DNA of 64,000 bases from Alphaproteobacteria bacterium CG1_02_46_17 (GTDB lineage Bacteria; Pseudomonadota; Alphaproteobacteria; Micavibrionales; Micavibrionaceae): assembly GCA_001871905.1 (NCBI GenBank), contig MNUG01000017.1, positions 62,397-126,396 on the forward strand. Reading direction: 5' to 3'. The position numbers and the translations under genes were made by a program. Positions 21,336-23,077 of this stretch are shown piece by piece. Every line of letters starts with the position of its first letter. Positions within the stretch are counted from its first letter, which is position 1. Under the pieces are notes generated by a model. It ran no database searches and was not told the origin of the DNA. It worked only from the letters and a program-made list of their open reading frames with translations.

Positions 21336-21938
21336 ATGGATTTGCTAAGAGGATTAAAGACATTGTTTGTCGGGGCAAAGGACAACACACAGCCGCACCC
21401 ACCCCTCGCTCAAGATCAAAATAATCAACCAAGCTTGAAACAAGAGGCAACCCCTGTCTTCGAGGAAACCGTCCCATCACCAGATGAACAAAAAACACCA
21501 AAATGCGGCATCTTGTACACCATCACGTCGGATATCGGTGGGACCATCTATTCGGCAGATGGAACTCTAAACCGCGATCTGGTCAATTTTCTTTGTGATG
21601 CTGCCGAAGACGGACACGATGTCATGTTGGTTTCGGGTGGTCATTTGGAGAGCGCCCAAGCCAAATTTGCAGCAGCCTGTCATGAGATAGGAAGACACGC
21701 TCCAGACAATATCTCCGTTCACAGCAAATACGACATTCAGGGCATGGAAGCCGACATCGCCTTTGATAATGAAGATTTTAATTACCTCGACAATAAGAGG
21801 GCTTTCTTGTTTACGGTCATGGTGGATCTTTTCGGGACACCGGATGTACCGATAGAAGAAATTCGCAAAACACTCTGTTTGCCAGCGAACGATCAGGCCA
21901 CAACTCCAAAACCTTCCCTCCAGACTCGACAACCTTGA
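21336..21938 (+). CDS. Hypothetical protein with weak HAD-like features, 200 aa
   Basis: AAGAGG lies upstream of the ATG. After a Pro/Gln-rich low-complexity stretch (about residues 18-55), the segment YTITSDIGGTIYSADGTLN resembles the DxDGT loop of HAD-type hydrolases, and VMLVSGG resembles their second motif. The key second Asp is replaced by Gly, so catalytic activity is doubtful. The ending is again low-complexity. It stops just inside the ssrA promoter. No family was recognised with confidence. Confidence 0.55.
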   Translation: MDLLRGLKTLFVGAKDNTQPHPPLAQDQNNQPSLKQEATPVFEETVPSPDEQKTPKCGILYTITSDIGGTIYSADGTLNRDLVNFLCDAAEDGHDVMLVSGGHLESAQAKFAAACHEIGRHAPDNISVHSKYDIQGMEADIAFDNEDFNYLDNKRAFLFTVMVDLFGTPDVPIEEIRKTLCLPANDQATTPKPSLQTRQP

Positions 21939-21963
21939 TATTTGGGAACGAACGCCCTATAAT
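21935..21963 (+). promoter_or_regulatory. Sigma-70 type promoter of ssrA
   Basis: TTGATA (21935-21940) and TATAAT (21958-21963) separated by exactly 17 bp, with transcription expected to begin near 21970, at the start of the tmRNA acceptor piece. Confidence 0.85.
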
Positions 21964-21969
21964 AAGGAT

Positions 21970-22300
21970 GTCGGGTTCGCCCGACTATGATGCTAAACGC
22001 TTTGTGAAATAGGCGTCGTGGACCCGGGGGCAGTGCCCGGCGGCTCCACCATATAAAACTTGAGAATACAAACGACAGTTTTATATGATGGGGCCGAAAC
22101 AGGATCGACACGCGTAATAAAGATAAAGTCTGTATTCGTTTGAGGAACGGTCGTATCCGTCCAAATTTTATAGATGCAAATGATAATGCACAGACCGTAG
22201 CAGCCAATGACAACTCTTTTGTTGTTGCTGGTGATAAAATCGCTGCTTAATTGCACCGATGAAGCTACATAATCCCTGAAGCTTCGGCAGAGGGTGGGGC
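21970..22300 (+). ncRNA. ssrA: Circularly permuted two-piece tmRNA
   Basis: Rescues stalled ribosomes by trans-translation. The 3' acceptor piece comes first and ends in CTCCACCA (CCA end 22049-22051). An 8-bp inverted repeat (TATAAAAC 22052-22059, GTTTTATA 22078-22085) closes the processed spacer. The coding piece then begins GGGGCCGAAACAGGATCGAC at 22090. Its first seven bases pair with CGGCTCC of the acceptor piece and include the G3-U70 wobble recognised by alanyl-tRNA synthetase. The tag frame runs from about 22203 to the TAA at 22248-22250 and encodes ANDNSFVVAGDKIAA. The outer ends are approximate. This permuted form is characteristic of Alphaproteobacteria. Confidence 0.93.
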
Positions 22301-22302
22301 GC

Positions 22303-22336
22303 GGGGCGGCCTAGCAACAGAACTGCCCCATTTTTT
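22303..22336 (+). terminator. Terminator of ssrA
   Basis: GGGGC (22303-22307) pairs with GCCCC (22325-22329), followed by A and six T, directly after the tmRNA coding piece. Confidence 0.7.
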
Positions 22337-22473
22337 ATGGCTTAAATTTCCGTGAGAAATTATGTCAAAATTTTCTTAAGGGTGAATTTCCGCCTGCGCT
22401 GGACAAATCAATCCCAACCGTTTATAGCTGATTCTACAAACAGTTCTGCTCAAAAAGACCCCAGATATTGCTG

Positions 22474-22980
22474 ATGAAAAACGACGACACTACCCTTAGA
22501 TACGATAAAATGGTTGAATCAGCGCTCCGCGGCGTGGTTCGTCAAGCCGTTTCCGAAGTGCAAGAACATGGCCTTCCCAACGACCACCATTTCTACATCA
22601 CTTTTATGACCGATTTTCCGGGCGTGCAAATTCCTGATTATCTGCGCGAACGCTATCCGGGCGAGATGACGATTGTCCTCCAATACCAGTTTGAAAATCT
22701 GACTGTGGATGAAACCAATCTGGGTGTCACCTTGTCCTTCAATAATATTCCGGAACGTTTGATTGTCCCGATCGCCGCCGTCACAATTTTTGCCGATCCT
22801 TCGGTTAATTTCGCCCTGCAATTCCAACCATTGGGTGACCTGATGGATCATGAGGAAGAAGCCCTTGCGGCTCTTGCCATGGATGACGACGGAGACGATG
22901 ATCCGGACAGCCCGAAAGGCAAAAAATCGAAATCTGGTGGCGGAGAAGTCATCTCCCTCGACAAATTCCGCAAAAAATAA
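22474..22980 (+). CDS. sspB: ClpXP adaptor SspB, alphaproteobacterial type
   Basis: 168-aa protein that tethers ssrA-tagged substrates to ClpXP. I prefer the ATG at 22474 over the TTG at 22468. The core has LRGVVRQAVSEVQEHGLPNDHHFYITF, PDYLRERYPGEMTIVLQYQFENL, LSFNNIPERLIVPIAAV and FADPSVNFALQF, all typical of the alpha-type SspB (DUF2155-unrelated). A flexible acidic linker (MDDDGDDDPDSPKGKK) leads to a C-terminal tail, VISLDKFRKK, the ClpX-binding peptide. It lies about 140 bp after the ssrA terminator, so adaptor and tag RNA are neighbours. Confidence 0.93.
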   Translation: MKNDDTTLRYDKMVESALRGVVRQAVSEVQEHGLPNDHHFYITFMTDFPGVQIPDYLRERYPGEMTIVLQYQFENLTVDETNLGVTLSFNNIPERLIVPIAAVTIFADPSVNFALQFQPLGDLMDHEEEALAALAMDDDGDDDPDSPKGKKSKSGGGEVISLDKFRKK

Positions 22981-23077
22981 ACCAAAAATCTAGTCTCTGC
23001 GACACATAAAATCTGGATTTCCGCCCTTGATTCAAGCTATCAAGGGCGCATTCATTTGTAAGAAAAGAGAATGTAAG

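Follow-up and report, generated by a model that had tools for sequence, protein, structure and literature searches.

Why would a bacterium encode twice, in one short degradation tag, the motif on which its adaptor protein is presumed to dock? The ssrA tag and SspB are the textbook case of proteolysis assisted by an adaptor and are widely used as a degron in synthetic biology: tmRNA adds the tag, ClpX grips its C-terminal Ala-Ala, and SspB binds ClpX as well as the tag's N-terminal part. We take the NDN motif to be the contact for SspB in alphaproteobacteria, and work by Chien and colleagues in 2007 is said to have found that SspB recognises the N-terminal part of the tag. A tmRNA gene (ssrA) followed by sspB lies in the window, by which we mean the whole stretch of 64,000 nucleotides analysed here, and its tag contains this motif twice.

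A permuted tmRNA gene with a doubled tag

The first-pass annotation had proposed a permuted two-piece tmRNA at this locus and suggested the Rfam alpha_tmRNA model as a check. That model (RF01849) matched 21931-22332 over its full length (model positions 1-355) with 213.8 bits against a threshold of 50 and an E value of 1.6e-60; RF04321 (tmRNA_permuted) also matched the locus with 122.9 bits, and ARAGORN called a permuted tmRNA* at 21956-22341. A search of the genome found this one alpha_tmRNA copy. All features described here are on the + strand. The order of the parts is the permuted one on which membership of RF01849 rests, namely a CCA-ending acceptor piece, a hairpin and then the coding piece. 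By the covariance model and the letters, the region 21964-22051 ends in the acceptor piece (...GGCGGCUCCACCA), with CCA encoded at 22049-22051, and is followed by an intervening segment of 38 bases (22052-22089). Capping the acceptor stem is a strong hairpin of the type ATATAAAACT / AGTTTTATAT, whose arms start at 22051 and 22077 and which folds at −26 kcal/mol (z −7.24). In two-piece tmRNAs the segment between the pieces is removed by processing, and the segment here is presumably excised in the same way. The coding piece, placed at 22090-22332 by ARAGORN and the covariance model, starts with GGGGCCGAAACAGGATCGAC and opens GGGGCCGAAACAGG at 22090.

The promoter that had been proposed ahead of ssrA corresponds to a sigma-70-like site, TTGATA-17-TATAAT (21935-21963), which agrees with the consensus at 11 of 12 positions; this is a consensus match only, in a region with 7 such sites against 1.7 in shuffles. 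A frame of 200 residues directly 5' of ssrA (21336-21938) had no Pfam match, and its end overlaps the promoter-like site. The terminator proposed between the two genes fared less well. A + strand scan found none in the ssrA-sspB gap, the sole + strand terminator-like site being at 23022-23048, 3' of sspB. A hairpin of the form GGGGC...GCCCC, with a TTTTTT run behind it that reaches 22336, could act as a terminator, but it folds no better than shuffles (z −1.07).

ARAGORN, the covariance model and the letters place the tag frame, ANDNAQTVAANDNSFVVAGDKIAA with a TAA stop (22248-22250), at 22176-22250, with GCA 22176 as the resume codon and 24 encoded residues. Its codons read GCA AAT GAT AAT GCA CAG ACC GTA GCA GCC AAT GAC AAC TCT ... 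GCT GCT TAA. The first ANDN motif (GCA AAT GAT AAT, 22176-22187) stands at the resume codon and the second, A-ANDN (GCA GCC AAT GAC AAC), at 22200-22214; the synonymous codons of the two copies differ. The frame closes with the Ala-Ala codons (22242-22247) that would form the ClpX end of the tag. With the charging alanine the tag becomes A-ANDN-AQTVA-ANDN-SFVVAGDKIAA, in which AANDN occurs twice.

The tag had previously been read as ANDNSFVVAGDKIAA, starting at GCC 22203, and called unusual for its middle and end. We rejected this start, because both ARAGORN and the covariance model begin at GCA 22176 and two features of the order's loci agree with them. Copy 1 sits 78-89 nt (median 86) past the GGGG landmark of the coding piece in the 97 of the order's 103 twin-tag loci that have the landmark, and the sole copy of the order's single-tag genomes sits 85-90 nt past it (28 loci), whereas copy 2 of the twin loci lies at 101-121 nt. 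In 112 of 125 order loci copy 1, or the sole copy of a single tag, is preceded by an upstream box with ATA at −6 to −4 (TATAGAT in the window); copy 2 has none in any of 97. ANDNSFVVAGDKIAA thus covers only the latter half of the tag, whose actual peculiarity, the doubled AANDN, had been overlooked.

The adaptor and its partners

The neighbouring gene (22474-22980) encodes an SspB of 168 aa, as had been proposed, with a body, an acidic linker and a C-terminal GEVISLDKFRKK. Pfam SspB (PF04386) matched with an E value of 4.9e-45 (153.8 bits, cut-off 27), and sequence comparison gave 1.3e-38 to 2NYS and 5.3e-30 to 2QAS. The structures closest to its AlphaFold model were 2NYS, 2QAS and 2QAZ, followed by E. 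coli SspB structures including 1OX9 and 8ET3. The fold agreed with the Caulobacter/Agrobacterium structures at an rmsd of 1.3-1.7 Å over 110-113 columns, in a model with a mean pLDDT of 68.6 and values below 50 for residues 123-168. The C-terminal GEVISLDKFRKK-type end, a putative ClpX-binding motif, is conserved.

The same genome gave one SspB match, one match to the ClpX zinc domain and two to SmpB (L454 and L455, on contigs C35 and C6). The frame beside one SmpB match looks to us like dapA; the other match is weaker and lies next to a membrane-protein-like frame, perhaps on a contaminant contig. Across the order, SspB was found in 125 of 142 genomes.

The first-pass annotation had suggested that tag and adaptor may have co-evolved, and had regarded the closeness of ssrA and sspB as unusual. 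This closeness proved to be widespread. Of the 122 called class loci, 89 have sspB 3' of ssrA and in the same orientation within flanks of 0.5 or 1.5 kb; in the order, 81 of 125 loci do so within about 3 kb, where several contigs end sooner. We therefore rejected any special significance of this arrangement and do not read it as a sign that the pair co-evolved in any special way. Among the matches listed in a literature search, no paper concerned ssrA-sspB synteny by its title and abstract.

The doubled tag is conserved in one family

Of 142 genomes of the order, 132 had an alpha_tmRNA match and 131 were analysed; G078, with a match below the cut-off, was left out. Tags were called in all 131 loci, 125 by our own script, which demanded ANDN-like codons for copy 1, and 6 from ARAGORN coordinates. 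ARAGORN, a separate program, called a tag in 124 of the 131, and in 115 of the 118 loci called both ways the tag was identical. In the other three (L019, L035 and L041) ARAGORN began the tag at the second copy, so tag databases may hold truncated versions of such tags.

Two NDN/NDD motifs were present in 103 of the 131 called genomes. These were concentrated in the window's family (f1, 97 of 98), with further cases in f5 (4 of 7) and f7 (2 of 2), and none in f2 (0 of 7), f4 (0 of 1) or f6 (0 of 16). The carriers include genome G047 (tag ANDNFVVANDNSREAAVAIAA), which is presumably the cultured predator M. aeruginosavorus ARL-13. The sole single-tag genome in the window's family is G040 (locus L006). 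A scan based on the SspB alignment covered the best 80 of 436 relatives, mostly MAGs of Micavibrio and other alphaproteobacteria; ARAGORN found a tmRNA in 54 of these loci, and 51 were twin. Two of the three non-twin calls (L135 and L139) presumably correspond to L041 and L035, both scored as twin by the script, and the third (L176) presumably to the single-tag L006. An NDN arose in 1.5% of shuffled tag middles.

Twin tags are 19-27 residues long and the order's single tags 12-21. The two motifs are 7-12 residues apart (9 in 66 of 101 distinct frames), and 7-12 residues, most often 11, separate the second NDN from the tag end, compared with 8-11 and one case of 17 in the order's single tags. 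The single tag of L002, ANDNFAPVAVAA, is identical to residues 1-12 of the L008 twin tag, ANDNFAPVAVAANDNVAASGAIAA, as would be expected from loss of a stop or from tandem duplication. In a further family, L114 (G001) has the tag ANDNNVAANGGFQESDLRLVA, with ANDN followed by AANGG, and resembles a twin tag with a decayed second motif.

The SspB tree, built from 87 rows (75 from the order and 12 hand-picked from elsewhere, 8 of the latter twin) over only 119 columns, requires at least three changes to account for the twin tag, of which its well-supported branches force two; the tag may have arisen once, with later losses, or repeatedly.

Doubled motifs elsewhere in the class

Outside the order, the class was sampled at about one genome per family from a draw of 387 genomes, 370 of them with a match; this gave 150 loci, including 4 that are weaker second hits within a genome. 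ARAGORN called tags in 122 of these, leaving 28 uncalled; 2 were twin, 98 had one NDN/NDD and 22 had none. Tags with one motif were 10-25 residues long (median 12, 98 loci). A single motif is therefore typical of the class sample, although not an Rfam criterion, and the window's tag departs from it. One of the two twin loci, in G397, pointed to a second order, in which 47 of 55 genomes matched; 30 loci were examined, 24 were called (L258 had no call) and 11 of the 24 were twin, including L443, with an odd ARAGORN start. This order, which has a Rickettsia-like tag, may be Rickettsiales.

In several reduced genomes with SspB present, another residue takes the place of Asp in each copy of the repeat (VNSN...VNSN in L287 and ANSN...ANFN in L349, for example). 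Such parallel replacement would fit one groove reading both copies, although the genomes are few and may share ancestry. G256 counts against it: its tag ANQNNAFVVACNDNAPIAIAA has ANQN and then CNDN, so that NDN occurs only in the second place, and a search for SspB in that genome found none. A screen of 186 paired SspB rows, less 6 that were too short, for residues covarying with the tag Asp named no site; its 16 paired genomes without NDN are confounded by ancestry. Separately, in a small order of six genomes (L275, L276, L281, L450, L451 and L452) the tags called by ARAGORN are rich in arginine, 24-31 residues long, and contain AN-x-N-like repeats whose motif has no Asp, for example ANKNNGRRTAANGNLNVANRGRRLARNAA.

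Both motifs are under selection as peptide

The codons of the second copy show what has been kept. Among its 303 NDN codons (101 distinct twin frames) there was one non-synonymous departure, GAC for AAC/AAT, while synonymous codons were mixed at each site (AAT/AAC 35/66, GAT/GAC 21/80 and AAT/AAC 19/81); twin rows were selected for a second ND[ND], so lost copies lie outside these counts, which hides 1 of 98 called family genomes. Parsimony on the SspB tree over the order's 57 twin rows gave no changes at codon positions 1 and 2 of the second NDN and 12, 12 and 7 changes (31) at position 3. The C-terminal Ala-Ala behaved in the same way, with no changes at positions 1 and 2 and 16 and 12 at position 3, whereas the spacer and tail codons had 5-26 changes at every codon position, counts that are inflated by alignment by offset without insertions. 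The second NDN, fixed at positions 1 and 2 and varying at position 3 between neighbours that vary everywhere, is kept as peptide.

This pattern led us to reject two explanations of the second copy. One supposes that it was retained for the sake of RNA structure, which the coding piece does have; but 31 third-position changes with positions 1 and 2 fixed are what a coding constraint produces, and we consider a structural role very improbable. A recent neutral duplication without function is just as hard to credit. Loss is evidently possible, given the single tag of L006 within the family and perhaps a decayed copy in L114; against this stand the codon pattern and the retention of the twin tag in 97 of 98 called family genomes.

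Another possibility is that length matters rather than docking, a longer unstructured tail aiding the grip of ClpX and the second NDN being a by-product of duplication. Twin tags are indeed longer than the order's single tags, and E. coli ClpXP, according to the accessible text of PMC8512704, degrades better with a longer sequence before ALAA in the absence of SspB. Neither the retention of NDN in nearly all genomes of the family nor its invariance amid variable spacer and tail residues is what one would expect of a mere linker, however, and we rate this explanation as improbable, if less so than the two rejected above.

The first copy is conserved in the same manner. Its NDN, which had been sought with ANDN-like codons, had no changes at positions 1 and 2 and 12, 10 and 10 (32) at position 3 over the same 57 rows; there is thus protein-level selection on both motif copies. 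This bears on a division of labour in which copy 2 alone would be the adaptor dock, at the usual C-terminal distance, and copy 1 would serve resumption or passage through the ribosome. Copy 1 does start where the order's single tags start, copy 2 does stand at the usual distance from the end, and G256, even though no SspB was found there, has NDN only in the second place. A purely RNA-level role nevertheless fails to explain the protein-level conservation of copy 1, and in single-tag genomes that same copy would be needed as the dock. We regard such a division as unlikely, though it deserves more weight than the length explanation.

A proposed function for two docks

The reading that we favour, with a probability of roughly 0.62, is that both motifs dock SspB while the single C-terminal Ala-Ala serves ClpX, giving two docking registers. 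The tag is a tandem, A-ANDN-AQTV-A-ANDN-SFVVAGDK-IAA, set in an otherwise ordinary alphaproteobacterial tmRNA-adaptor locus. Its second unit alone makes up a complete conventional tag of presumed dock, spacer and C-terminal Ala-Ala; the first holds the fixed position of the resume codon and would put an extra dock ahead. Trans-translation would add the 24 encoded residues together with the charging alanine, 25 in total, and SspB could then dock on either NDN while the Ala-Ala enters ClpX. In the window's tag, 20 and 11 residues from motif to end would be the two registers.

We infer that SspB binds both copies, and that the benefit would lie in rebinding or in choosing between two reaches, not in simultaneous binding. 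The accessible text of PMC8512704 describes an engineered doubled E. coli tag, AANDENYAANDENY, whose KD for SspB was not significantly changed; the authors consider it doubtful that a peptide this short has both sites occupied at the same time. Both points speak for docks or registers that are used in alternation, not together, and the variable spacing of the natural motifs argues against a fixed bivalent geometry. A selected bivalent degron, with both NDN used together by the two subunits of an SspB dimer or by hand-over from the outer to the inner copy as ClpX pulls, would be a design that almost the whole of one family retains and that recurs in another order of the class. We think it doubtful, on a par with the division of labour.

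Comparison with known systems

The main text of the 2025 tmRNA-database paper (PMC11915505) contains neither 'repeat' nor 'duplicat', and in the accessible text of the 2014 paper (PMC4131195) 'repeat' is absent and 'duplicat' occurs once, for duplicate gene calls. No paper among the matches listed concerned a natural doubled ssrA tag by its title and abstract, in a search that covered only a minority of subscription papers. The databases themselves probably already contain these tag sequences.

The locus resembles the alphaproteobacterial two-piece tmRNAs of RF01849 and RF04321 in its permuted gene with a CCA acceptor piece and a coding piece, in its resume codon GCA behind an A/T-rich box, and in a tag that starts with ANDN and ends with Ala-Ala. 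It differs from those with an ANDN-type tag in having 24 residues and ANDN twice. Its SspB is like the Caulobacter/Agrobacterium proteins (2QAS, 2QAZ and 2NYS) in sequence and fold, with a C-terminal motif similar to the VVSLDAFRKK of 2NYS.

A close parallel to the tag itself is the engineered E. coli degron AANDENYAANDENY, which likewise has two SspB-docking motifs, presumed as such here, in one short tag. By the accessible text of PMC8512704, AANDENY is essential to SspB binding in E. coli, and the degron was degraded by ClpXP with SspB although ALAA is missing. It is man-made, with a spacing of 7, no linker and no Ala-Ala end, whereas the natural twin tags have spacings of 7-12 and, in the order's twin genomes on the tree, keep the Ala-Ala end. 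The family includes the predator Micavibrio, and the parts of the twin-tag system are small and easy to express. A lineage that keeps two presumed docks, set against an engineered doubled tag that gained no significantly tighter binding, makes it possible to test directly what a second dock may be for, whether affinity, reach or hand-over.
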